A DNA stretch of 64,000 nucleotides, from assembly GCF_001263415.1 (NCBI RefSeq), contig NZ_LGTE01000006.1, forward strand, positions 1 to 64,000, given 5' to 3'. Positions 7,746-20,636 of this stretch are shown one piece after another. The notes beneath the pieces were generated by a model. The model did not search any database, was not told where the DNA came from, and saw nothing but the letters and a program-made list of their open reading frames with translations. The position numbers were made by a program, and so were the translations under genes. Position 1 is the stretch's first letter. Each line of letters begins with the position of its first letter. The stretch comes from Thermincola ferriacetica (lineage in GTDB: Bacteria; Bacillota; Thermincolia; Thermincolales; Thermincolaceae).

Positions 7746-8588
7746 ATGTTGATTCAGGAGGAGAATATTGTCAAAAAGATGAGTTATTTGAAACAGTTTT
7801 ATTTGTTCTTGATTGATACAATTAAGTGTAGAGGCCTAATTTTTGAATTAGCAAAAAAGGATTTTAGGGCAAAGCATTTAGGCTCATACCTTGGTATTCT
7901 TTGGGCCTTTGTTCAACCAACCATTACCATCTTGATTTTCTGGTTTGTATTTCAAGTTGGGTTTAAATCGACTCCTGTTGATAATTTTCCTTTTATACTG
8001 TGGCTTTTATGTGGGATGGTACCGTGGTTTTTCTTTTCGGAAGCTATATCCAATGCTACCAATGCTGTAATAGAAAACAGTTATCTTGTGAAGAAAGTAG
8101 TTTTCAGAGTCAGCATATTGCCAATCATTAAAATAGTATCGGCGTTATTTATTCATATATTTTTTATCATTTTTTTGTTTTTAATGTTTTTCTTATATGG
8201 TTACAAGCCAAATATTTACAATATACAAATAATCTATTATTTGTTGGCAACTGTTATTTTGGTTTTGGGGATTTCATGGATAACTTCGTCGCTAATAATT
8301 TTTCTAAGAGATATAGGACAAATAGTTGGAATGTTACTGCAGTTTGGTTTTTGGATGACTCCAATATTTTGGTCATTAAAAATAGTGCCTGAAAAGTATC
8401 ACAACATTTTGAAACTAAATCCCATCTATTATATAGTGGAAGGGTACCGGGAAAGTTTTATTTATCGTACATGGTTCTGGGAGCATTTATATTTAAGCAT
8501 TTATTTTTGGATTATAACTCTTTCTCTGTTTATAATCGGGGCTTTAATGTTTAGAAGACTTAGACCACACTTTGCAGATGTCTTATAA
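7746..8588 (+). CDS. wzm: ABC-2 type polysaccharide exporter permease (Wzm/TagG-like)
   Basis: Membrane subunit of an ATP-driven lipid-linked polysaccharide exporter. The ABC2_membrane pattern is clear: an N-terminal amphipathic segment (LAKKDFRAKHLGSYLGILWAF), then about six hydrophobic helices, including NPIYYIVEGYRESFI before the last pair. 280 residues is slightly longer than usual; the strong AGGAGG at 7757 lies 14 bases before an in-frame ATG at 7779, so the real start may be there. The wzt gene follows directly with its start at 8605. Adjacent transferases suggest the cargo is made in this cassette. Confidence 0.92.
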   Translation: MLIQEENIVKKMSYLKQFYLFLIDTIKCRGLIFELAKKDFRAKHLGSYLGILWAFVQPTITILIFWFVFQVGFKSTPVDNFPFILWLLCGMVPWFFFSEAISNATNAVIENSYLVKKVVFRVSILPIIKIVSALFIHIFFIIFLFLMFFLYGYKPNIYNIQIIYYLLATVILVLGISWITSSLIIFLRDIGQIVGMLLQFGFWMTPIFWSLKIVPEKYHNILKLNPIYYIVEGYRESFIYRTWFWEHLYLSIYFWIITLSLFIIGALMFRRLRPHFADVL

Positions 8589-8604: not shown

Positions 8605-9807
8605 ATGGATAAAGATATAGCTATTAAAGTACAAAACGTATCAAAGATATATAAACTGTATGATAAGCCAATAGATAGATTGAAAGAGTCTATAAACCCA
8701 TTTGGGAAAAAGTATCATAAGGACTTTTATGCCTTAAAGGACGTATCATTTGAAGTTAAAAAAGGTGAAACTGTTGGTATTATTGGGAAAAATGGGTCAG
8801 GGAAATCAACATTGTTGCAACTTATAACAGGAGTTCTTACGCCTACAACGGGTTCGATTCAAGTAAATGGTAAGGTATCAGCATTATTAGAACTTGGTGC
8901 AGGATTTAATCCGGAACTTACAGGAATAGAAAATGTATATTTGAACGGAACTATAATGGGTTATAGTAAAGAAGAGATGGATAAGAGACTTGATGACATA
9001 CTCTCTTTTGCAGATATAGGTGATTATGTTAAACAACCTGTGAAAACCTATTCCAGCGGTATGTTTGTTAGATTGGCTTTTGCGGTAGCAGTAAGTGTTG
9101 ACCCTGATATTTTAATTGTTGACGAAGCCCTGGCTGTAGGGGACATGCATTTTCAATTGAAGTGTATTGATAAAATGAAATCTTTTAAAGAGGATGGCAA
9201 GACTATACTTTTTGTTAGCCATGACATATATTCTGTGCGCAATTTTTGCGACCATGTTATTTGGATGATGGATGGAAAAATTTATTTAAGAGGCAATGTT
9301 TTGAGTGTAACAGACCAATATATGGACTATGTAAAATCGGAACTCGAACAAGTAGATACTCCTATATCAGGAGAAAGGAAAAATGGGATACTCAACATAG
9401 ACGCAGTTACTATTTTGAATGACAATGACGAGGAAAAAAATAAATTTCTTTTTGGTGAAAATATTAAAGTTGTAGTTGATTATACACTTAGTGAGAAATT
9501 GCCAGGAGTAATTGGTGGAGTAGCTATATTTGACAGGCGGAATAGCTATATATGTGGTCTTAACACTAAGTTGGACGAGGTAAAGTTACCAACTTCTCCC
9601 GGCAGTTATCAATTAATTTTGCAATATAAAAATATGAATTTGTTGCCTGGTTCGTATTTTATAGATGTTGGTTTTTTTGAAAGCTCTGGAATTGTACCCT
9701 TAGATTATAAAAGCCGAATTGCTTCTTTTCAAATTTTCTCGACACATTATATGGCTGAAGGTCTTACCCTACTGAATCATATATGGAATTATAAGAAACG
9801 AACTTAA
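8605..9807 (+). CDS. wzt: ABC polysaccharide exporter ATPase with C-terminal glycan-binding-type domain (Wzt-like)
   Basis: ATPase subunit paired with the upstream permease. The N-terminal 240 residues carry Walker A GKNGSGKST (about residues 59-67), signature YSSGMFVRLAFA, Walker B ILIVDEAL and switch FVSHD. The C-terminal ~150 residues form a Wzt_C-like beta-sandwich region. In characterised Wzt proteins this domain binds the modified non-reducing end of the polymer, tying export to chain termination. The start is set at ATG 8605 (MDKDIAIK) behind AAGGGG; an upstream in-frame ATG at 8572 lies inside the permease and has no RBS. The flanking methyltransferases fit an end-capping model. Confidence 0.92.
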   Translation: MDKDIAIKVQNVSKIYKLYDKPIDRLKESINPFGKKYHKDFYALKDVSFEVKKGETVGIIGKNGSGKSTLLQLITGVLTPTTGSIQVNGKVSALLELGAGFNPELTGIENVYLNGTIMGYSKEEMDKRLDDILSFADIGDYVKQPVKTYSSGMFVRLAFAVAVSVDPDILIVDEALAVGDMHFQLKCIDKMKSFKEDGKTILFVSHDIYSVRNFCDHVIWMMDGKIYLRGNVLSVTDQYMDYVKSELEQVDTPISGERKNGILNIDAVTILNDNDEEKNKFLFGENIKVVVDYTLSEKLPGVIGGVAIFDRRNSYICGLNTKLDEVKLPTSPGSYQLILQYKNMNLLPGSYFIDVGFFESSGIVPLDYKSRIASFQIFSTHYMAEGLTLLNHIWNYKKRT

Positions 9808-9822
9808 TGAGGAGCATTAAAT

Positions 9823-12714
9823 ATGAAGTATGAATTTAAAATCGATATGTCGAATGATAGTGCGCACTCGCTTGTTTTACGCCATATACGTTTTGGTTCT
9901 CAAGTACTTGAGTTTGGTCCGGCGACTGGGTACATGACCCGCTATATGAAGGAAAAACTAGGGTGTATTGTATATTGTGTTGAAAGAGATATAGAAGCGG
10001 CCAGGAAAGCGGCCAATTACTGTGACAGAATGATTATAGCGGATATAGAGAGCATGGATTGGATTGACCCGCTTTCAGAGAAGTCTTTTGACCATATAGT
10101 TTTTGCTGATGTATTAGAGCATTTAAGGGATCCCTGGAAAGTACTTGAGTACGCCAAAGCATTTCTTAAGCAGGGTGGTACGGTAGTTACATCCATTCCT
10201 AACATTGGACATAGTGCGGTATTAATGGAGCTGTTTCAAGGAAGGTTCGAGTATCAGCCTTTAGGGATACTTGATGAAACTCATATGAGGTTCTTTACAA
10301 AGAAAAGCGTTTTGGATCTATTAGAAAAGGCTGGACTATGTCCGATTAAATGGTTAGGAACTATTGCTTATCCCGAAGATACTGAATTTAAGCAAGAATA
10401 CAGAAAGTTTCCACCAGCCCTCCAAACAATATTAAAAAACCGAGAAGATGCTCATGTATATCAGTTTGTTACAGTATCCAAAAGAAAAGAGGACATATGT
10501 CAAACAGAATGTTGCATGAACTTTAATAGCTTATCTCATGCAAATAACGGATATGTGCAGGTTTTTTGGAAATTAGATGGTAGATTTGATGAGAACATAT
10601 CTGCAAAAGTACCTCTAGAGTGCAACAAAGGGTTTGTGAAATATGAATTGAACCTTCCCCCGAAAATACATGGATGTTTGCGAGTAGATCCAGCAAGTTT
10701 TCCAGCTTATGGTGAAATTAAAAACATTGCATTATTTTCTAATAATGTTCATATTACTGGAGAACTTGAGCCGGTGCTATTTTGGAGTAAAGAAAACAAT
10801 TTTGAAGGCTTGTCTCCGGGGCCAGGCGTAGTGTTTCTAGATGGCCAGGATACTAAAAAATTTTTATGTATTGATTTTGACCCGCAACTATATTTAACCA
10901 ATGTGCCCGATATAGGCAGTGACCATTCTTTAGTTTTAAGGATAGAAATGAGTATTTCTGAAAATATACCCCAAAATATTTCTGCTCATATTAACGAACT
11001 TTTCTCCGAAAATGATAGACTATGGAAAGAACTTAAGAAAAAAAATGAACAATTGAAAACACAGTCTAATGAGTTAGCAAGGACACAAGAAGAATTGAAA
11101 AATAAAAACAAACAAATTCAGCACCAGTTAGAAAAGTTGGAAAAACAGGATATGTTGTTGAAAGAAAAAGAAAAGTGTCTTCGCGGATTACAGATTGAAC
11201 TTACACAAATTTATAATTCAAATGGTTGGAAAGCGCTTTCATTATACTATAAAACAATCGATAAGCTACTGCCAGATGGAACGAAAAGAAGAAATTATTT
11301 ATTTGCTCTTAAAAATAATATTCGTAAGTCCGCCAGTTATCTAAAATTGTATGGTTTGAAAAGTTTTATAAAAAAAGTGAAATACAAGTTAAATTCAACC
11401 AGCGTGAAACTAGACGGTAAAAATACCTTTGATGTTCCGCAGTTAAAGTTAGTCCGTGTTCCAGAAAAAAAAATAGAGCCAACTGATGATGCAACTGTTT
11501 CAATTATTATCCCAACAAAAAATGCAGGTGAGGATTTTGATTTACTTTTGGCTATGCTCCAAAAGCAAAAAGGGTTTAAGAATGTAGAAATTATTATAGT
11601 AGATTCCGGAAGTACTGATGGGACACTGGAAACTGCAAAAGATTATAAAACAAAAATAGTAACAATCTTGCCAGAACAATTTTCTCATTCATACGCAAGG
11701 AATTTAGGAGCCAGTCATGCAACAGGTAATTTTCTACTTTTCACTACCCAAGATGCTTTTCCCCCATCTGATTTGTGGCTTTACGAGCTTTTTTGCGTGT
11801 TAAAAAATAATGAAGTTGTAGCCGTTTCGTGTGCAGAAACTCCCCGAGAAGATGCTGATTTGTTTTATAGAGTTATTGCTTGGAATCATTATAAATTTTT
11901 AGAAGTAGATAAAAATGACAGGGTTTTCTGTAAGCCTGAAGCAGAAAATTACATGACTTTAAGGAAGAACGGGCAACTTTCGGATATTGCTTGCTTAATT
12001 TCTAAAGATATTTTTATGAAATATAAATATAGGTTTAACTATGCAGAAGATTTAGATCTTGGAATAAGACTGATAAAACATGGCCATAAAATTGCCTTTC
12101 TTGGTTCTACCAGAATTATTCATTCTCATAATAGACCGCCATATTACTTTTTAAAGAGAGGTTATGTTGATAATCTGTTTTTGTCAGACATATTTTCTGA
12201 TTTTCCTATTCCATTTATTGAAGTAAACTCTTTTATTAAAGATATTGTTTTTACATACAATATTTTAAATTCTGTCATTAAAAGTGAATTATTAAATTTA
12301 AAGTTACCTCTTAAAATAGATGAGTTCATTAGTATCGTTAATAATAAATTTCAAATTGCTAATCGTTGTAGTTATCCTGCTTCTATTGATATTGATGGCA
12401 ATGAATATATAGATAATGAATTCAAGTCTTTTCTAACAAGAATTTGGTATCATTATTCAGGGCACAGAAATCATGAATCTTACAATGGTATTCTTATCGA
12501 TGCGCTTCTTGGTTTTCTTGATATAACCTTTCAATATATAAGAAACACTTACGAATTAATAGATGACTATGTACTTGAAGATTTTAAATCATGCATCTTT
12601 AAAGAGTATGCTATTTTATGCGGCGCACATTTGGCCTATTGCTATTTAAAAAGCCCAGACAAAGAAAAAGATGCATTACATGATATTTACAGCGAGCTCA
12701 TTAAAGGGGTATAA
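9823..12714 (+). CDS. Methyltransferase / coiled-coil / glycosyltransferase 2 fusion protein
   Basis: A 963-residue multidomain protein. Residues ~20-220: class I SAM methyltransferase (motif I VLEFGPATGY at 28-37, FDHIVFADVLEHL as post-motif). Residues ~230-380: region of unknown fold. Residues ~388-465: strongly charged heptad-like coiled coil with repeated K/E/Q/L. Residues ~555-780: GT2 domain (SIIIPTKNAG, VDSGSTDGT, TQDAFPP, AEDLDLGIRLIKHG). The C-terminal ~180 residues are unassigned. No stop or composition break is seen, so this looks like a real fusion. Downstream of wzt it could extend and cap the exported glycan. The methyl acceptor is unknown. Confidence 0.87.
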   Translation: MKYEFKIDMSNDSAHSLVLRHIRFGSQVLEFGPATGYMTRYMKEKLGCIVYCVERDIEAARKAANYCDRMIIADIESMDWIDPLSEKSFDHIVFADVLEHLRDPWKVLEYAKAFLKQGGTVVTSIPNIGHSAVLMELFQGRFEYQPLGILDETHMRFFTKKSVLDLLEKAGLCPIKWLGTIAYPEDTEFKQEYRKFPPALQTILKNREDAHVYQFVTVSKRKEDICQTECCMNFNSLSHANNGYVQVFWKLDGRFDENISAKVPLECNKGFVKYELNLPPKIHGCLRVDPASFPAYGEIKNIALFSNNVHITGELEPVLFWSKENNFEGLSPGPGVVFLDGQDTKKFLCIDFDPQLYLTNVPDIGSDHSLVLRIEMSISENIPQNISAHINELFSENDRLWKELKKKNEQLKTQSNELARTQEELKNKNKQIQHQLEKLEKQDMLLKEKEKCLRGLQIELTQIYNSNGWKALSLYYKTIDKLLPDGTKRRNYLFALKNNIRKSASYLKLYGLKSFIKKVKYKLNSTSVKLDGKNTFDVPQLKLVRVPEKKIEPTDDATVSIIIPTKNAGEDFDLLLAMLQKQKGFKNVEIIIVDSGSTDGTLETAKDYKTKIVTILPEQFSHSYARNLGASHATGNFLLFTTQDAFPPSDLWLYELFCVLKNNEVVAVSCAETPREDADLFYRVIAWNHYKFLEVDKNDRVFCKPEAENYMTLRKNGQLSDIACLISKDIFMKYKYRFNYAEDLDLGIRLIKHGHKIAFLGSTRIIHSHNRPPYYFLKRGYVDNLFLSDIFSDFPIPFIEVNSFIKDIVFTYNILNSVIKSELLNLKLPLKIDEFISIVNNKFQIANRCSYPASIDIDGNEYIDNEFKSFLTRIWYHYSGHRNHESYNGILIDALLGFLDITFQYIRNTYELIDDYVLEDFKSCIFKEYAILCGAHLAYCYLKSPDKEKDALHDIYSELIKGV

Positions 12715-12717
12715 CTT

Positions 12718-13995
12718 ATGAAAATTCTTTATTTAGTCCACCAGTTTTTTCCAGAATATTGTTCAGGAACAGAAAAATTTGTATTAAACTTGGCCACAAT
12801 GATGCAAAGAATGGGGAATAAGGTTAAAGTTATTACGTACAGTTTCTATGAAGATTCGTTTTACGATGAAATTGTTGGAAATATCCTAGTTAAAGAATTT
12901 ACATACAAAGGGATTCCAATAAAAGCTTTTAAGTATAGGCAAAGTCCTGTAGATACTCACTATGCATTAGAAAACAAAGATTTATCTCAGGTGGCTGATA
13001 ACTTTATTAATGATGAGGGCCCAGATCTTGTCCATATTGGGCATCCCATGAGAGTTGGAGAATTAATTAGAGCTACTAACAGGTTGGAAATACCTTATGT
13101 TATAACACTTACCGACTTTTTTCTAATGTGCCCAAAAGTTGTTCTCTCTACTTCTGAAGGTCAACTGTGTACAGGACCTGAGCGTGGAAGTATCTGCATA
13201 GATATGTGCAACGAAATTCCCAATAGTCTAATTCAGCAACGGCTAAAATCAGCGGAGGAAATTTTATTTAATGCAAAAAAAGTTGTAGCCCCATCTGAAT
13301 TTCTCGCAAATTTATTTAAAAAAGAATTTCCAGCTATCGAATTTGAAGTCGTAAATCATGGTATTAGTTTCAGTAAAAGAAAAAAGAATAGAAAGCGTTA
13401 TACAAAAGAAGATGGGCTAGTCTTTTGCTATGCTGGAACGCTTGCTCCTCATAAGGGTGTTCACATTCTCATAGAGGCCTTTAAAAATATTGCTTCCCCT
13501 AAGGCAGGTCTCGAAATCTATGGCTCAGGTCCGGACAAACTGTATATTAAAAAGTTAATGGATCTGGCTGAAAAAGATGTTAGAATTAAGTTTTGTGGCC
13601 AATATTGGGAAGACAACGTTGGTAATATATTTACTAATGTTGATGTCGTTATTGTACCGTCGCTTTGTTATGAAAGTTATTCTTTAGTTATGCATGAGGC
13701 TTTTTCTTGTAACGTACCTGTTATTGCTTCCTCTATAGGAAATCTAGGAGAAAAGATTATTGATAATTTCAATGGTTTTACTTTTAAACCAGGGGATTCA
13801 TCCTATTTAACAAAATTGTTGTATTCATTAATCAAAAACCCAGAGAGGTTGAATGAACTGAAAGTGAATCTAAGGTATGGTATAGTACCGTCAGTTGAAC
13901 AAGAGGCTTACGCCTACGAGAGAATATACAGGCAGGTGATTAATTACAAAACTTATGATATCAAAAAAGGGGGATTTAATGGTGAAATTAGTTAA
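12718..13995 (+). CDS. Glycosyltransferase family 4
   Basis: A 425-residue GT-B transferase. N-terminus KILYLVHQFFPEYCSGTEKFVLNLA is the donor-loop type; HIGHPMRVGELIRAT is in the acceptor domain. The C-terminal domain has CYAGTLAPHKGVHILIEAF, YGSGPD and the donor-site PSLCYESYSLVMHEAFSCNVPVIAS. A small Cys-containing stretch (FLMCPKVVL...CTGPERGSICIDMC) near residues 138-165 holds four cysteines; this feature appears in some GT4 subfamilies and could bind metal. It starts 3 bases after the previous stop and its 3' end overlaps the next small gene. Sugar donor is unknown. Confidence 0.86.
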   Translation: MKILYLVHQFFPEYCSGTEKFVLNLATMMQRMGNKVKVITYSFYEDSFYDEIVGNILVKEFTYKGIPIKAFKYRQSPVDTHYALENKDLSQVADNFINDEGPDLVHIGHPMRVGELIRATNRLEIPYVITLTDFFLMCPKVVLSTSEGQLCTGPERGSICIDMCNEIPNSLIQQRLKSAEEILFNAKKVVAPSEFLANLFKKEFPAIEFEVVNHGISFSKRKKNRKRYTKEDGLVFCYAGTLAPHKGVHILIEAFKNIASPKAGLEIYGSGPDKLYIKKLMDLAEKDVRIKFCGQYWEDNVGNIFTNVDVVIVPSLCYESYSLVMHEAFSCNVPVIASSIGNLGEKIIDNFNGFTFKPGDSSYLTKLLYSLIKNPERLNELKVNLRYGIVPSVEQEAYAYERIYRQVINYKTYDIKKGGFNGEIS

Positions 13996-14209
13996 AAAAA
14001 AGTTAATTAAGGAACTAGTATTCTGGTCTGTTATCTTTATGCTTGCGACACCAAAAAACGCATACGCTTATATTGATCCGGGTACAGGCAGCTATATGCT
14101 TCAGGTATTGGCTGGAATTGTAATAGGAGCTTTAATAGCTATTAAGACGTTTTGGAAAAGTTTAAAATCTTTTGTTCCAAATATTTTTAATAAAGGTGAA
14201 GAAAATTGA
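13979..14209 (+). CDS. Small membrane protein with YIDPGTGSY motif, uncharacterised family
   Basis: A 76-residue protein with two hydrophobic segments: residues ~10-27, ending in an AYA-like signal-peptidase site, and residues ~40-58. Between them is the motif AYIDPGTGSYMLQ, followed by a basic tail (KTFWKSLKSF). From memory, tiny proteins with this motif recur in polysaccharide loci beside a methyltransferase and a sulfatase-like protein, as here; I know of no assigned function. ATG 13979 is chosen because AAAAAGGGGG lies 6-8 bases upstream; an earlier in-frame ATG (13955) has no RBS. It overlaps the upstream GT4 end by 17 bases and the next TTG start by 4 bases, indicating tight co-expression. 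Confidence 0.75.
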   Translation: MVKLVKKKLIKELVFWSVIFMLATPKNAYAYIDPGTGSYMLQVLAGIVIGALIAIKTFWKSLKSFVPNIFNKGEEN

Positions 14210-15588
14210 AATGTAACATAAGAGAACCCGGATCTTTTAGGGATCCAGGGGGATTCGTTTTTTACAGAGAAGGCCATGTTTATAGGCAGATAAATGAACA
14301 GTCTAAAGAGGACTATGAATTTTTCATGAATGGAGGCCTTTATCGAACTTTGGTTGATGCTGAGCTGCTTATTCCTCATACGGAAGTGCAGATTGCTGCA
14401 GAAGGTTTTCAGGAAACAGTATATAAAATAATTCAACCAGAGAGAGTGCCTTTTATATCTTATCCTTACGAGTGGAGCTTTAGCCAGCTCAAAAATGCTG
14501 CTTTAACTACATTAAGAATACAAAAAACGGCTCTCCAGTTTGGAATGTCTCTTATTGACGCAACGGCGTACAATATTCAGTTTTTTGGTTGGAAACCTGT
14601 ACATATCGATACACTTTCTTTTAAAAAGTACAACGACGGAGAGCCTTGGAGTGCATATAAACAGTTTTGTCAGCATTTCTTGGCACCGTTAGCGTTAATG
14701 AGTTACACCGATGTACATTTGAACCAGCTACTTAAAGTTTATATCGATGGAATCCCTTTAGATTTAGCCTGTAAACTTTTACCCTTTAGGTCGAGATTAA
14801 AAAGTGGTCTACTTTTACATTTGCATATTCATGCTAAAAGTCAGCAACATTATGCTGATAAAGCTATTAAGAACAATACCCGCAAAATGCCGCTAAAATC
14901 TTTGATAAATTTACTTAATCATTTGGAATTAACTATTGACGAACTTAAGTGGCAACCTAAAGGAACAGAATGGGCGGATTATTATAAGTTTACTAATTAT
15001 TCATCGGATATGATGAAAATAAAAGAACAAACTGTCGAAAAGTTTATCGATCAGGTTAAACCAAGGAATGTTTGGGACCTAGGAGCAAATATCGGCCTTT
15101 TTAGCCGATTAGCGAGTAAAAAGGGAATTTATACATGTGCATTTGATATAGATCCTGCTGCGGTTGAAAAAAACTACCTTGAATGCAGGAAAAATAAAGA
15201 GACTCATTTGATTCCCCTTTTGCTTGATTTAACCAATCCAAGTCCACCGATTGGCTGGCAAAACCAGGAGCGCCGTTCTTTGTTGGATAGAGGGCCTGCT
15301 GATATGGTTTTGGCGTTGGCTTTGATTCATCATATAGCTATTTCAAATAATGTCCCGCTAGATCGAATTGCTCAGTTTTTTAAGAGTATATGTTCTTTTT
15401 TAGTTATAGAATTTGTCCCTAAAAGTGATTCTCAGGTACAAAAATTGCTAGCAACTAGACAGGATATTTTCCCTGATTATACACAAAACGCTTTTGAGAG
15501 GGAATTTAAAAAATACTTTACCATTGAAGAGGCTTTGGGTATTGAAGGTTCAGAACGCACACTGTACTTAATGTCTAGAAAAAACTGA
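14206..15588 (+). CDS. Kinase-like domain fused to class I SAM methyltransferase
   Basis: A 460-residue protein usually annotated only as a methyltransferase. The C-terminal half (from ~270) has motif I VWDLGANIGLFSR (about 289) and the late ALALIHHIAIS segment. The N-terminal half contains LIDATAYNIQF and PVHIDTLSF: Asp118, Asn123 and Asp135, with spacing 5 and 12. That matches the catalytic-loop D-x4-N and metal-binding D of protein-kinase/aminoglycoside-kinase folds. A kinase reading is my inference. WbdD of E. coli O9a, which caps ABC-exported O-antigen, also joins kinase and methyltransferase, in the opposite order. Start TTG overlaps the upstream stop (TTGA) behind AAAGGTGAAG. Confidence 0.75.
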   Translation: MKCNIREPGSFRDPGGFVFYREGHVYRQINEQSKEDYEFFMNGGLYRTLVDAELLIPHTEVQIAAEGFQETVYKIIQPERVPFISYPYEWSFSQLKNAALTTLRIQKTALQFGMSLIDATAYNIQFFGWKPVHIDTLSFKKYNDGEPWSAYKQFCQHFLAPLALMSYTDVHLNQLLKVYIDGIPLDLACKLLPFRSRLKSGLLLHLHIHAKSQQHYADKAIKNNTRKMPLKSLINLLNHLELTIDELKWQPKGTEWADYYKFTNYSSDMMKIKEQTVEKFIDQVKPRNVWDLGANIGLFSRLASKKGIYTCAFDIDPAAVEKNYLECRKNKETHLIPLLLDLTNPSPPIGWQNQERRSLLDRGPADMVLALALIHHIAISNNVPLDRIAQFFKSICSFLVIEFVPKSDSQVQKLLATRQDIFPDYTQNAFEREFKKYFTIEEALGIEGSERTLYLMSRKN

Positions 15589-15682
15589 TTTTAGTAACCA
15601 AAAAAATTAATTTATCCTATGAATAATTAAGGGTGTAATTTGACAATATTTTTAAACCATACAAAAATTGAGGTAATCAAAT

Positions 15683-17194
15683 ATGATTTTTAATCGAAAT
15701 ATGGATAAAAGCCAGGATAATATACATACCGAACAAGAGCCCAAAATGAGTAATTTTTATTTAATCCACCCTATACTTTTTGCGATTTATCCTATTATTT
15801 TTCTATATTCTTATAATGTTCAAGAGACATCATTTAAACAAATTGTTTTGCCTGTTGGTATTTCTGTGGCATTTTCTTTGTTATTTTTCTTAACATTGAC
15901 AGTCGTTTTACGGAATCGGTTGAAAGCCGGGTTAGTTACAACGTTTTTTCTAATGGCTTTTTATTCGTACGGGCGCATTTTTGACGTTCTGAATGATTAT
16001 TGGAAATGGAGTTTTAACATTGCTCAACATAGGTACGTTCTTCCAACAATGTTGTTATTGGTTTGGTATGCAGGTTCATTAATTCATGATGTAAAGAACC
16101 AAGTTAATTTGGAGAAGCTTTCTAGGATTTTTACTATATTAGGTTTAACATTAATAGTAATTAATTTGTTTAATGTTATGCCAAACGAAATCAATAAAAA
16201 ACAAACTGACATAAAAGAAAATAAAGTTGTAAAACAGGCTTATGCCAGAAAATCAGATATGCCCGATATTTATTATATCATTTTAGATGAGTACGCTAGT
16301 TTAGATACTATTAAAAACATATGGAATTATGATAATACTGAATTTGAAAATAGCTTATCAAAAAAGGGATTTTATATCTGTAGAAACAGCACTAGCAAAT
16401 ATACTGATACGTATAAGTCGTTAGCTGCCTCTTTGAATATGAACTACTTACCGGAAAACATCAGCGAAGCAGATGTATTTAAAATGCTTTCTAACAATAG
16501 AGTAATGAACTTTCTAAAAGGAAATGGTTATAAAACTGTATACATTGGAAACTGGTATGATATTTCAAGATATAAAATGAATGTTGATTTTCAATATAAC
16601 TTTTATTTGGATAGTAACTTAAGTTATGTTGACGAATTTTCCTTAATTTTAATTAAGAGTTCAATGTTAAAACCATTTGAATACCTTTTTGGAATGAGTT
16701 ATACAGATGGAAATACTTACAGGAGCTCTGTTTTATACTCCTTTAACAAGCTAAAACAGTTACCCCATGTTGAAGGTCCTAAATTTGTTTTTGCACATAT
16801 TTTGTCTCCTCATACTCCGTTTGTTTTTGATAGAAATGGCGGTCAAGTAAACCAAATAAATAGCCGTAACTGGAAAGATAAGAAGTATTATCTTAACCAA
16901 TATATATATATATCGAATCAAGTTGACTCTTTAGTTAGTGAATTGATTTCTCAATCTAAAATGAATCCGATTATTATAGTTCAGTCGGACCATGGCCCTA
17001 GACCAAACAATAGTCCTAAAGAAGAAGAAAATTTTGAAATTCCTGATATTGATAAGCATAAAATTTTCAATGCTTATTATTTGCCTAACCTTGATAAAGG
17101 CTTATTAAGGGAAGATATTTCGCCTGTAAATACATTTAGGATCATTTTTAATAATTATTTTGGCCAAAAGTTAAAGCTATTGCATGATAAATGA
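15683..17194 (+). CDS. Membrane-anchored sulfatase/alkaline-phosphatase-superfamily protein
   Basis: A 503-residue protein. About five hydrophobic helices occupy the first ~180 residues, then an extracytoplasmic domain of the alkaline phosphatase/sulfatase superfamily. Visible: MPDIYYIILDEYAS (metal-binding Asp near 193-200), a Thr-rich KYTDTYKSLAASLNM where the nucleophile Thr/Ser is expected, FAHILSPHTPFVF, and the C-terminal metal pair QSDHGPRP. The layout recalls LtaS and phosphoethanolamine transferases, so it may add a phospho-group to an exported glycan rather than hydrolyse sulfate. It lies in the conserved-looking tail of the ABC-exporter cassette. Exact substrate is unknown. Confidence 0.8.
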   Translation: MIFNRNMDKSQDNIHTEQEPKMSNFYLIHPILFAIYPIIFLYSYNVQETSFKQIVLPVGISVAFSLLFFLTLTVVLRNRLKAGLVTTFFLMAFYSYGRIFDVLNDYWKWSFNIAQHRYVLPTMLLLVWYAGSLIHDVKNQVNLEKLSRIFTILGLTLIVINLFNVMPNEINKKQTDIKENKVVKQAYARKSDMPDIYYIILDEYASLDTIKNIWNYDNTEFENSLSKKGFYICRNSTSKYTDTYKSLAASLNMNYLPENISEADVFKMLSNNRVMNFLKGNGYKTVYIGNWYDISRYKMNVDFQYNFYLDSNLSYVDEFSLILIKSSMLKPFEYLFGMSYTDGNTYRSSVLYSFNKLKQLPHVEGPKFVFAHILSPHTPFVFDRNGGQVNQINSRNWKDKKYYLNQYIYISNQVDSLVSELISQSKMNPIIIVQSDHGPRPNNSPKEEENFEIPDIDKHKIFNAYYLPNLDKGLLREDISPVNTFRIIFNNYFGQKLKLLHDK

Positions 17195-17214
17195 TTTTTA
17201 TGAGGGGGATGTGA

Positions 17215-18132
17215 GTGGGAGGGAAGTTAAGAAACAGAAAAACTTTGCTAAATATTATGGTGTTTATTAGTTTTATTATTTATTTGTTTTGTGCTGATTA
17301 CATATTTGATGATTTATTGAAGGTTGAAGGAGAATCAAGAATAGAAAGAGTAAACATTGTTCCGAGGGAAACTGACGATATAAAATACAGTATAGATGAA
17401 ATTAATTCTATTCAAGTTAAATGGAAGGAAATTATGCAAGTAAGAGGGTGGGCTTTTACTAAAAGTGGGAATACACAAGATAGTATTATTCGTATTGTTT
17501 TAAAGTCAAAAGAAAACACATATATTTCGGAGACAACCAGTGAATCGAGACCGGAGGTTTCGGTAAAATTTGGTGATTCAAACTTTGATTTGGACAAGTC
17601 CGGCTTTGTATCCCTTATTGATGAGAGTGCAATAAAAAATGGTAAATATAATATCGGAATAATAATTGAAAATGGTGTCCTTAAATCATTTATCTTCACT
17701 AATAGGTTTGTGACCAAAACTAACAAAATCTTGTACAATAGGCTCATATCGGTGGAACAGAAATTTGAAGTGCCGGAGGAGACCAAACGGATTTCCCTTA
17801 ATGTTGAAAGGGTCCAAGAAACTTCGGATATGGGAAACAAGTTTATAGAAATAGAAGGCTGGGCCTTTGGTGAAGCACAAAATACAGATAATCAACAAGT
17901 TTATGTTGTATTAAAATCAGATAATGGCACATATATTTACGATACAGTTTCGAGAAAAAGGCCGGATGTAACAAATTGTTACAAAAGATTAAAATTAAAT
18001 CTGGATAATAGTGGATTTTTAGCAGCAATACCTAAGGATGAACTAAAAAGAGGGAAATATGAAATAGGAATTTATATAAAAAAGGATGATGTGGAATTAC
18101 TCCAATACAGCGGGAAAACTGTAACTATATAA
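17215..18132 (+). CDS. Membrane-anchored protein with two GWAF-type beta domains, unknown function
   Basis: I do not recognise a named function. GTG start behind GAGGGGG. Residues ~10-30 form one hydrophobic anchor; the rest is predicted outside the cell. Two related ~100-residue units follow (about 65-165 and 200-305). Each begins IQVRGWAF or IEIEGWAF, then IxxVLKSxxxTYIxxT, a RPxV motif, a LxLDxSGF strand and a KxGKYxIGIxI strand. This is an internal duplication of an all-beta domain, perhaps carbohydrate-binding. It is the last gene of the AT-rich cassette, 20 bases after the phosphatase-fold gene and before a terminator, suggesting the two work on the same exported polymer. Confidence 0.65.
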   Translation: MGGKLRNRKTLLNIMVFISFIIYLFCADYIFDDLLKVEGESRIERVNIVPRETDDIKYSIDEINSIQVKWKEIMQVRGWAFTKSGNTQDSIIRIVLKSKENTYISETTSESRPEVSVKFGDSNFDLDKSGFVSLIDESAIKNGKYNIGIIIENGVLKSFIFTNRFVTKTNKILYNRLISVEQKFEVPEETKRISLNVERVQETSDMGNKFIEIEGWAFGEAQNTDNQQVYVVLKSDNGTYIYDTVSRKRPDVTNCYKRLKLNLDNSGFLAAIPKDELKRGKYEIGIYIKKDDVELLQYSGKTVTI

Positions 18133-18197: not shown

Positions 18198-18222
18198 AGC
18201 CCCTTCATGGGGTTTATTTATT
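18198..18222 (+). terminator. Short terminator ending the ABC-exporter cassette
   Basis: AGCCCC (18198-18203) pairs with GGGGTT (18209-18214) around a 5-base loop, with one G-T pair, followed by TATTTATT. The stem is short, so strength is uncertain, but it falls between the cassette and the subtilisin gene. Confidence 0.5.
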
Positions 18223-18302: not shown

Positions 18303-20636
18303 ATGGTAAGGGATTTGAAAAGTTTTATTGGAAAATTTTTGGCGGTGCTTTTTTTATGCTTAACGTTATTGGCGCCTGTTTCGGGGTTATTTACATTTCC
18401 AGCGTTAGCAACACCTAGTTCGTTTAATGCTGGCAGAAATGATATTATAAGTAACAATTTGGTTAGTAATAGGGTTTATAAAGAACAGAATAGTGTCTTT
18501 GCAAAAATACATATGATAGGTCGTAAACCTCTTTATGTACCTGATGAGATTTTAGTTAAAGTTAAAGAGGGTAAAAGCTTAGGTCATGTGATGTCGGGTT
18601 TAGATGGTAAATTAGTAAAAGAAGATAAAAAGTCACGAGTTCAAAAAATTAAACTCTCTAAAGGAGTTAATTTATTGTCTGCTGTTGAAGCATATCGTAC
18701 TAATCCTAATGTAGAGTATGTAGAACCAAACTATATTCGGAAGCCCAGTTATATCCCAAATGATCCTGACCTATATAAACAATGGGGGATCGACAAAACA
18801 AGGGTTAAAGAAGCTTGGAATATTTCTAAAGGTGATTCATCAACAATTATTGCAATTATAGATACAGGAATAGACTTTAACCATCCTGATCTAGCTGCAA
18901 AAATTGTTTACCCATATGATTCTGTTACAGATTCAACCAATATTTTACAGGTTAAAGATTATCAAGGTCATGGTACTCATGTTGCTGGCATAGCTGCTGC
19001 TACCATAGATAATAACATAGGTATAGCGGGTATAGCCGGAAATGTTAAAATAATGCCGGTGAAAGCATATAACGATGAATATGGTGGTTTTTCCGACATG
19101 GACATAGCTGATGCCATTTATTGGGCTGTTGACCATGGGGCTCGGGTAATTAACTTAAGTTTAGGGGGATATGGTTATTCGTTTACATTACAAAATGCCG
19201 TCAATTATGCTTTAAATAAAAACGTAGTTGTAGTTGCTGCGGCTGGCAATGACTCAACAGATATTCCTACTTATCCCGCAGCTTATGAGGGGGTAATTGG
19301 AGTAGCTGCTACAGATGAATATGATTCTGACGCGGTTTTTTCTAATTTTGGTTCATACATAGATATAAGTGCGCCGGGTACAAATATATATTCTACTGTT
19401 CCGACATATTACGTTAGTGGATTTTCTATAAATTACGATTATTCTCATGGAACATCTATGGCGTCTCCGGCGGTGGCAGGACTGGCAGGTTTAATTTTAA
19501 GTGTGAATCCTTCTCTTAATCGAGTTCAGGTAGAAAGTTATATATGTCAAAACGCTCAGGATATAAATGTTACTGGAACAGAAGCTGGATGGGATCCCTA
19601 TACGGGATGGGGTCGTATTAATGCTTATAAAACTCTGCTGGCTGTTTTATCGCCTAAAGGTTATTTAGATAGCCCAAAAGAAGGTCAAACTTTAAGCGGT
19701 ACAGTTAATGTGATTGGTTGGTTTTTGGATGGTAGCGGTGTATCGAAAATAGAAATTTTGGTAGATGGGGTAGTAAAAGGCCAAGCTGTGTACGGTGATA
19801 CTCGATTAGACGTTGGGAGAGTATTTCCGGCATACAATAATAACAATTCAGGATTCCATTACAGTCTGGACACAACCAAATTAAGCAATGGTACTCATAC
19901 AGTAACCATACGAGAGACCGGAGCAAATGGTTCTCAAACTATTTTGCCGGCAAGAACCGTTACAGTTTTAAACTCTCTGCCAGCGAAAGGTTATTTAGAT
20001 AGCCCAAAAGAAGGTCAAACTTTAAGCGGTACAGTTAATGTGATTGGTTGGTTTTTGGATGGTAGCGGTGTATCGAAAATAGAAATTTTGGTAGATGGGG
20101 TAGTAAAAGGCCAAGCTGTGTACGGTGATACTCGATTAGACGTTGGGAGAGTACTTCCGGCATACAATAATAACAATTCAGGATTCCATTACAGTCTGGA
20201 CACAACCAAATTAAGCAATGGTACTCATACAGTAACCATACGAGAGACCGGAGCAAATGGTTCTCAAACTATTTTGCCGGCAAGAACCGTTACAGTTTTA
20301 AACTCTCTGCCAGCGAAAGGTTATTTAGATAGCCCAAAAGAAGGTCAAACCCTAAGTGGTACAGTTAATGTGATTGGTTGGTTTTTGGATGGCGATGGAG
20401 TATCAAAAATTGAGGTCATAGTGGACGGGATAATACAGGGCCAGGCATATTACGGAGTCAATCGGGAAGACGTATATAATGTACTTCCGGCATATGACAA
20501 TCACAACTCCGGTTACAGCTATAGCTTGGATACTACACAATTAACTAATGGTAGTCATCAAATTACGATTCGGGAAACTTCTCTGCTAGGAAAAGAAACT
20601 AATTTACCGAGTAGGTCTGTAGTTGTAATAAATTAA
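18303..20636 (+). CDS. Secreted subtilisin-like serine protease with three Ig-like repeats
   Basis: A 777-residue S8 peptidase acting outside the cell. Signal peptide at residues ~1-36, propeptide (VPDEILVKVKEG... to VEYVEPNYI, ~75-145), then the catalytic domain with Asp187 (AIIDTGID), His223 (GHGTHVAG), Asn in AAAGNDST and Ser385 (GTSMASPAVAG). All triad residues are present, so it should be active. Residues ~452-777 are three tandem 110-residue beta-sandwich units beginning AKGYLDSPKEGQTLSG with an IGWFLDG motif, probably mediating surface or glycan contact. It is monocistronic between two terminators. The first two repeats are almost identical at DNA level. Confidence 0.92.
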   Translation: MVRDLKSFIGKFLAVLFLCLTLLAPVSGLFTFPALATPSSFNAGRNDIISNNLVSNRVYKEQNSVFAKIHMIGRKPLYVPDEILVKVKEGKSLGHVMSGLDGKLVKEDKKSRVQKIKLSKGVNLLSAVEAYRTNPNVEYVEPNYIRKPSYIPNDPDLYKQWGIDKTRVKEAWNISKGDSSTIIAIIDTGIDFNHPDLAAKIVYPYDSVTDSTNILQVKDYQGHGTHVAGIAAATIDNNIGIAGIAGNVKIMPVKAYNDEYGGFSDMDIADAIYWAVDHGARVINLSLGGYGYSFTLQNAVNYALNKNVVVVAAAGNDSTDIPTYPAAYEGVIGVAATDEYDSDAVFSNFGSYIDISAPGTNIYSTVPTYYVSGFSINYDYSHGTSMASPAVAGLAGLILSVNPSLNRVQVESYICQNAQDINVTGTEAGWDPYTGWGRINAYKTLLAVLSPKGYLDSPKEGQTLSGTVNVIGWFLDGSGVSKIEILVDGVVKGQAVYGDTRLDVGRVFPAYNNNNSGFHYSLDTTKLSNGTHTVTIRETGANGSQTILPARTVTVLNSLPAKGYLDSPKEGQTLSGTVNVIGWFLDGSGVSKIEILVDGVVKGQAVYGDTRLDVGRVLPAYNNNNSGFHYSLDTTKLSNGTHTVTIRETGANGSQTILPARTVTVLNSLPAKGYLDSPKEGQTLSGTVNVIGWFLDGDGVSKIEVIVDGIIQGQAYYGVNREDVYNVLPAYDNHNSGYSYSLDTTQLTNGSHQITIRETSLLGKETNLPSRSVVVIN
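19656..20636 (+). repeat. Three tandem 330-bp repeats inside the subtilisin gene
   Basis: Units start at 19656, 19986 and 20316, exactly 330 bases apart. Units 1 and 2 differ at a single base (T at 19824, C at 20154; Phe to Leu). Unit 3 is nearly identical for its first ~70 bases and then diverges strongly while keeping the fold. In-frame repeat expansion and contraction is likely. Confidence 0.95.

Follow-up and report, generated by a model that had tools for sequence, protein, structure and literature searches.

Behind an ABC exporter cassette of Thermincola ferriacetica lies a group of four genes, and the question is whether these genes form a functional unit and, if so, what that unit modifies. 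The window analyzed was the 64,000-nucleotide stretch at positions 1 to 64,000 of contig NZ_LGTE01000006.1. All four genes were found on the + strand, and the first three are a mini-protein gene (ORF at 13979..14209; 76 aa, ATG start with GGGGG upstream), a NoeA-family kinase-methyltransferase gene (14206..15588; 460 aa, TTG start, from ORF and homology) and a gene for a NoeB-like sulfatase-fold membrane protein (15683..17194; 503 aa, PF00884 at 1.9e-13 and predicted structure). The fourth encodes a GWAF-repeat protein. Upstream on the same strand are a Wzm-type ABC exporter permease (7746..8588; ABC2_membrane), a Wzt-type ATPase with a C-terminal glycan-binding domain (8605..9807; ABC_tran, Wzt_C) and, from domain searches, a methyltransferase-GT2 fusion (9823..12714) and a GT4 glycosyltransferase (12718..13995). 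In this genome the four genes do close the exporter cassette, as originally described. The window coordinates also confirm the described placement and tight packing: the 5' end of the mini-protein gene overlaps the GT4 gene by 17 bases, and its stop codon overlaps the TTG start of the kinase-methyltransferase gene by the four bases TTGA. The exception is a 94-bp gap ahead of the sulfatase-fold gene, which holds a promoter-like match (10/12; 15640-15668), the count of such matches being within shuffle expectation.

The mini-protein consists of a signal-peptide-like N-terminus ending in AYA, followed by YIDPGTGSYMLQ, a transmembrane (TM) segment of about 17 residues and a basic tail. Residues Y31, D33, P34, G37 and Q42 were invariant among 28 standalone relatives, and the tail was net positive in at least 90% of these. 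The predicted topology is N-out, C-in. The conserved motif is accordingly predicted on the side of the membrane opposite the kinase-methyltransferase, a point that speaks against the explanation preferred below. Pfam and NCBIfam had no name for the mini-protein or for the GWAF protein. A literature search with the motif letters YIDPGTGS gave no match, and no report of the motif, of its pairing with the enzyme or of the fusion class described below was found in the literature. The strict pattern YIDPG[ST]G misses the variants YIDPISGS, YIDPINGS, YVDPG, YNDPGSMS and YLDPASGS, and the mini-proteins at loci L156-L160 missed by this pattern were recovered by profile search.

The second gene product has a kinase-like domain at about residues 9-215 and a class I SAM methyltransferase domain at about residues 260-458. 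The codons for the kinase-type residues R27 (14284), D118 (14557), N123 (14572) and D135 (14608), spanning 14284..14610 on the + strand, specify residues invariant in 14 homologues; they are the equivalents of PKA K72, D166, N171 and D184, with Arg replacing K72 (after PMC9758233). The conserved SAM-binding motif DLGAN is encoded at 15076..15090 (+). The predicted model has a pLDDT of 87.9; the Foldseek hits listed cover the methyltransferase half, and among them the kinase half had no match to a solved kinase. The N-terminal half is probably kinase-like, judging from PMC9758233 and the residue pattern. Both signatures are intact, as had been proposed from the DNA. No phage homologue of the enzyme was found.

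The third gene product is predicted to have five TM helices and an extracytoplasmic alkaline-phosphatase-superfamily domain, and the best PDB fold matches of the predicted model were MCR-1, EptA, EptC and LtaP. It shares with EptA, MCR-1 and LtaS/LtaP the five TM helices, the superfamily domain, the Thr nucleophile and the D/H ligands. In the alignment the predicted nucleophile is the invariant T243 (codon at 16409..16411, +); the predicted metal ligands are D202 (or E203), D436 and H437, of which D436-H437 is near-invariant, and H377 is conserved too. With this fold and T243 the protein looks like the extracytoplasmic phospho-group transferase originally suggested. No NCBIfam family matched it. 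A formylglycine sulfatase was rejected, since the C/S-x-P-x-R signature is absent and the active-site segment reads SKYTDTYKSL.

The first three genes recur far beyond chance and constitute a widespread module. Of 45 loci from four phyla that were chosen by the kinase-methyltransferase alone, 44 had a mini-protein gene on the same strand no more than 2 kb away: 15 of 16 in the window's own phylum, Pseudomonadota and Bacteroidota (window excluded), and 29 of 29 in Actinomycetota, the latter including three strong hits that the motif filter had scored False. None was found in 17 control regions. Independent searches of 745 genomes gave 18 genomes with both genes, one with the enzyme only and one with a YxDP mini-protein only (Fisher p = 6e-34). 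In the opposite direction, the enzyme adjoined 16 of 18 standalone YIDPGTGS mini-proteins found by DNA pattern (at least 18 among the matches listed); for the other two the examined sequence ended at the mini-protein, and the enzyme was later found adjacent to one of them. A divergent relative beside Wzm-Wzt (L180) was without a mini-protein, which counts against the membrane-subunit reading given below. The sulfatase-fold gene was present in 22 of the 45 loci (13/16 and 9/29, the latter with 1.5-kb flanks). The pairing of mini-protein and kinase-methyltransferase is thus near-obligate, while the sulfatase-fold gene is frequent but not universal. The predicted recurrence of the three kinds of gene was therefore borne out, though as a tight pair with a common companion rather than as three equal members.

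The original prediction knew of no described function, which overlooks the published relatives NoeA/NoeB and the Lani_1194 family (PMC9758233). The enzyme is 36.5% identical to Sinorhizobium meliloti NoeA over 98% of its length, with both active sites conserved. On pSymA of S. meliloti the order is nodL, an unnamed 71-aa ORF with YLDPGTGS, noeA and noeB; the three genes of the window are found there in identical order, mini-protein ORF included. NoeB matches PF00884 and the sulfatase-fold profile, among whose seeds it is. The operon is assigned to nod box n5 (Ardourel 1995, cited after PMC9758233 and PMC4053727), and NoeA and NoeB are host-range nodulation proteins. Unlike the window, the S. 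meliloti operon works with lipochitooligosaccharide nodulation signals and without Wzm/Wzt. The Lani_1194 family of Legionella and others, for which NoeA is named as a homologue (PMC9758233), belongs to one enzyme family with the window's kinase-methyltransferase: we found full-length homology, the order kinase-like to SAM methyltransferase, the kinase catalytic residues and an alkaline-phosphatase-fold gene of NoeB/Lani_1195 type as neighbor. Among 816 published neighborhoods this neighbor occurred in 38% and Lani_1193 in 65% (PMC9758233). Lani_1193 may be the homologue of the mini-protein, for which the pairing sampled here was 44/45; the main text of PMC9758233 describes neither a motif nor a topology nor a fusion class for it. 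A publication of 2022 already covered part of the triad.

We give a probability of roughly 0.6 to the reading that the first three genes are a NoeA/NoeB-type envelope-modification module in which the kinase-methyltransferase has the mini-protein as its dedicated subunit in the membrane. The YIDPGTGS motif would lie at the outer face, the single short TM segment would span the membrane, and the basic tail would hold the enzyme at the inner leaflet, on the cytoplasmic side, next to a membrane-associated acceptor. This acceptor would be much alike in different phyla, not a glycan end peculiar to a strain. The enzyme would phosphorylate and methylate this acceptor by WbdD-like chemistry, and outside the NoeB-type enzyme, with its five TM helices and Thr nucleophile, would transfer or remove a phospho-type group. 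Overall, a phospho-type group would be loaded at the inner face and finished or moved outside. The pairing points to an unrecognized molecular machine that modifies bacterial envelopes. NoeA and NoeB have been known as host-range proteins since 1995, and the accessible literature gives their role as a hypothesis only; if the 71-aa ORF is their membrane subunit, NoeA experiments without it may have missed activity.

The YIDPGTGS domain was also found at the N-terminus of a second class of proteins, in one chain with a Glyphos_transf (glycerophosphotransferase-like) enzyme, in Spirochaetes, Lachnospiraceae and others. Masking the motif did not abolish the match of the fused segments to the standalone profile (8.8 vs 2.1 bits; 75 of 89 beat all of their own shuffles), and a register of G16, K/R26 and K31 is common to both, so that by profile comparison the standalone and fused domains are homologous beyond the motif. 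As in the window, a sulfatase-fold outer enzyme adjoins, here fused to YidC at 60 of 65 loci, whereas the cytoplasmic enzyme is a relative of CDP-alcohol type phosphotransferases; cytidylyltransferase and PEP-mutase genes are among the neighbors. Tentatively, the domain could act as a general adapter across the membrane for group-transfer systems that work on both of its sides, coupling a cytoplasmic loading enzyme (kinase-methyltransferase, CDP-alcohol/phosphonate transferase, perhaps PAPS sulfotransferase) to an extracytoplasmic one (5-TM or YidC-linked sulfatase-fold domain, perhaps arylsulfotransferase), with the inside-loaded group passed outside via an undescribed carrier. That the domain also occurs in another enzyme class, one whose partner is a YidC-sulfatase, suggests that envelope decoration makes use of a general membrane mechanism.

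An alternative, which we consider unlikely, is that the enzyme modifies the non-reducing end of the exported glycan and stops its growth, the cap being read by the C-terminal domain of Wzt. This is the role of WbdD of E. coli O9a, the kinase-methyltransferase of an ABC-exported O-antigen (PMC3482155; PDB 4azs). WbdD likewise joins a kinase and a SAM methyltransferase in one chain, but its profile and fold match to the window enzyme covers the methyltransferase part only, its domain order is reversed (methyltransferase first) and no mini-protein is known for it. The modules of the window and of locus G011 lie behind Wzm/Wzt, and the divergent relative at L180 follows Wzt. However, among the sampled loci exporters were beside the module only in the window, at G011 and at one divergent Bacteroidota locus, so that the expected co-occurrence with ABC exporters is not a general trait; this scarcity of exporters was the reason for rejecting WbdD-type capping as a general role. 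The predicted polysaccharide setting holds for the window itself, but most sampled modules lay outside polysaccharide clusters, and the mini-protein largely occurs outside glycan loci, the outcome named beforehand as speaking against the proposal. Glycan-gene counts by BLAST seeds are insensitive, but a Pfam scan of 96 neighbors at 11 loci without clusters agreed with them (three GT2 and three sugar-dehydratase hits). The window and G011 share 66% identity in the kinase-methyltransferase but 25-30% in the glycosyltransferases and 23% in the glycan-binding domain of Wzt, which argues against the variable end of the exported glycan as the substrate.

It is similarly improbable that the mini-protein mainly serves the extracytoplasmic enzyme, as scaffold or activator of its sulfatase-fold domain, with the kinase-methyltransferase as operon company. 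In favor of this, the predicted topology exposes the motif at the outer face, and the fused class has a sulfatase-fold partner too. The order mini-protein, sulfatase-fold gene, enzyme was found at four loci (L046, L169, L171, L172), and in one Pseudomonadota genome (L214) a mini-protein lies beside a sulfatase gene and the kinase-methyltransferase is absent, which would fit the outer enzyme as the real partner of the mini-protein. Against this, the mini-protein is linked more tightly to the kinase than to the sulfatase-fold gene in the same loci, and the fused class joins it to a cytoplasmic-type enzyme.

That the mini-protein is itself the substrate, carrying a group added by the kinase-methyltransferase and taken over by the outer enzyme, is very improbable: the T/S and Y conserved in the motif, the near-obligate pairing and the predicted exposure to the outer enzyme are consistent with it, but the predicted topology puts the motif out of reach of a cytoplasmic kinase, across the membrane, and the fused class has the motif without any kinase. 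Chance operon neighbors can practically be dismissed, since we found no point in their favor and the survey, with its Fisher test and empty control regions, contradicts them.

The GWAF-repeat gene (17215..18132, +; 305 aa, GTG start, from ORF and profile search) encodes an N-terminal membrane anchor and two beta-type repeats, and is followed by a weak terminator-like hairpin (18198..18214, +), the count of such hairpins being within shuffle expectation. We found no evidence that its product holds the modified glycan, as had been supposed. It was proposed as the fourth member of the module but was present in 2 of 61 relatives, and it is a lineage-specific gene outside the recurring module.

Gene calls placed the four genes on the plus strand where the original prediction had put them. 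The mini-protein gene (13979-14209, 76 aa) is overlapped by four bases by the kinase/methyltransferase gene, here gene 2 (14206-15588, TTG start), followed by the genes for the sulfatase-fold membrane protein (gene 3, 15683-17194) and the GWAF protein (17215-18132). As predicted, they stand behind an exporter operon: genes for Wzm and for a Wzt that carries a glycan-binding domain come first, then those for a methyltransferase-GT2 fusion and a glycosyltransferase of the GT4 type. Neither Pfam nor NCBIfam named the mini-protein or the GWAF protein. The latter is likely exported and anchored, and its gene is tied to the others by position alone; among 61 relatives it was confined to two genomes, that of the window and G011, and in the latter the module also follows Wzm/Wzt. 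A four-gene module was therefore not upheld, and the module is here the first three genes. A second, fragmentary GWAF copy lies 3' of the GWAF gene of G011 (locus L010, 13092-13292). Directly 3' of the four genes in the window is a subtilase gene (18303-20636) with three nearly identical Big_7 repeats, whose GWF motif recalls GWAF.

The first three genes do recur together. In loci selected by gene 2 only (own phylum, Pseudomonadota and Bacteroidota; window excluded), a mini-protein gene was found upstream on the same strand within at most 2 kb in 15 of 16 and a sulfatase-fold gene in 13 of 16, whereas neither was present in 17 control regions from the same genomes. Gene 2 was carried by 41 of 212 Actinomycetota genomes. 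All 29 loci examined there had a mini-profile match of about 1e-12 or better, counting three outside the motif filter (two YLDAGTG and one showing a secondary domain's stretch), and nine had the sulfatase-fold gene within the 1.5-kb flank. Summed over gene 2 loci, the mini-protein was present in 44/45 and the outer enzyme in 22/45. Independent searches for gene 2 and the mini-protein in the same 745 genomes, sampled evenly within each phylum, gave 18 genomes with both (Fisher p = 6e-34, which overstates the independent evidence since the genomes are related), one with a YxDP mini-protein only (L214, beside a sulfatase) and one with the enzyme only. The last is the Bacteroidota locus L180 (7293-10867), where a divergent kinase-methyltransferase adjoins Wzm and Wzt with no mini-protein or sulfatase-fold gene. 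In the reverse direction, the YIDPGTG DNA pattern gave 18 standalone mini-proteins among the matches listed, 16 with gene 2 adjoining; the remaining two lay at the end of available sequence, and gene 2 was later found adjacent to one.

The gene 2 family and part of its neighbourhood are already published. A 2022 survey described Lani_1194/NoeA as a kinase-methyltransferase family with two conserved neighbours, Lani_1193 in 65% of 816 neighbourhoods and Lani_1195/NoeB, of alkaline-phosphatase fold, in 38% (PMC9758233). Lani_1193 may be a homologue of the mini-protein. A search of plasmid records matched gene 2 to S. meliloti noeA, 36.5% identical across 98% of the protein's length. The gene order on S. 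meliloti pSymA is nodL, an unnamed 71-aa ORF (sequence MPIIMSVVGFLILSIVPAHAYLDPGTGSMLVQ...), noeA and noeB, an arrangement shared by Rhizobium sp. T136. According to work cited in PMC9758233, both noe genes govern host range on certain Medicago species. A strain whose noeA is truncated was unsuccessful on 17 of 27 M. truncatula genotypes (PMC4053727). The literature covered treats the biochemical role of the two gene products as hypothetical (PMC9048898). We found no report of the motif, the near-obligate pairing, the ORF within nodL-noeA-noeB as part of the system, or the fused class and the YidC-sulfatase protein that accompanies it (see below), which is weak evidence of absence since the search covered open-licence literature only.

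About 90 of the YIDPGTG pattern matches listed were not standalone. In this fused class, found in spirochaetes, Lachnospiraceae and others, the YIDPGTGS domain is the N-terminus of a protein of about 400 aa with Glyphos_transf (Pfam on two members). With the motif masked, fused segments scored above their own shuffles on the standalone profile (75 of 89 beat all five). Both classes share a register of motif 1-8, G16, K/R26 and basic residues at 31 and 33, and are split by position 12 (Q standalone, S/T fused). No gene 2 was found near fused-class genes among the matches listed. A YidC-like plus sulfatase-fold protein of about 900 aa, with D490, T527, D800 and H801 invariant, was encoded nearby on the same strand in 60 of the 65 fused loci whose sequence extended far enough to either side. 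Relatives of one such YidC/Oxa1-like protein (fused locus L026, 3860-6646) occurred in 77 fused loci. Neighbouring cytidylyltransferase, PEP mutase and aminotransferase genes suggest CDP-alcohol or CMP-phosphonate donors.

Standalone mini-proteins have a signal-like N-terminus, often with AxA directly before the motif, a short transmembrane segment and a positive tail. By the positive-inside rule the motif is predicted to face out and the tail in. This predicted topology, and the continuation of the tail into a cytoplasmic-type enzyme in the fused class, argue for a membrane subunit that would place the enzyme at the inner leaflet. R27, D118, N123 and D135 of gene 2 were invariant across 14 relatives, and its methyltransferase motif DLGAN mostly so. 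The AlphaFold model (pLDDT 87.9) matched class I methyltransferases; the putative kinase fold comes from PMC9758233 and the residue pattern. Gene 2 is not WbdD, the E. coli O9a capping enzyme, since only the methyltransferase of WbdD matched and the domain order is reversed, but its chemistry may be similar. Gene 3 is predicted to cross the membrane with five helices; among solved structures, its outer domain is closest in fold to MCR-1, EptA, EptC and LtaP. T243 was invariant across 11 relatives, D436-H437 was nearly so, and no formylglycine sulfatase signature was found. These features suit a phosphatase-type enzyme or a phospho-group transferase better than a sulfatase. The most likely chemistry would be phosphorylation and methylation of an acceptor by gene 2, with an outer phospho-group step by gene 3.

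The original prediction linked the module to polysaccharide loci and ABC exporters and modelled it as modifying a glycan end. Some preference for glycan regions was seen, with at least three glycan genes nearby in 4/16 gene 2-selected loci versus 0/17 controls, yet the module stands mostly alone: 96 neighbours from 11 loci without glycan clusters gave only three GT2 matches. Wzm/Wzt exporters beside gene 2 were exceptional (the window, G011 and L180), contrary to the expected co-occurrence. Between the window and G011, gene 2 is 66% identical, against 25-30% for the glycosyltransferases and 23% for the glycan-binding domain of Wzt. This conservation, with so few glycan neighbours, speaks against the local glycan end, and the acceptor is probably something common.

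In Pseudomonadota, small membrane proteins with the motif AYVGPG(A/L)G or AYIGPG(A/L)G (L215 and L217-L222) matched the mini-profile weakly and mostly adjoin sulfotransferase-like genes. A Pfam scan of two of these loci, L215 and L221, identified an arylsulfotransferase as a neighbour in both and a PAPS-type sulfotransferase in L215. They are possibly a sister system for sulfate.
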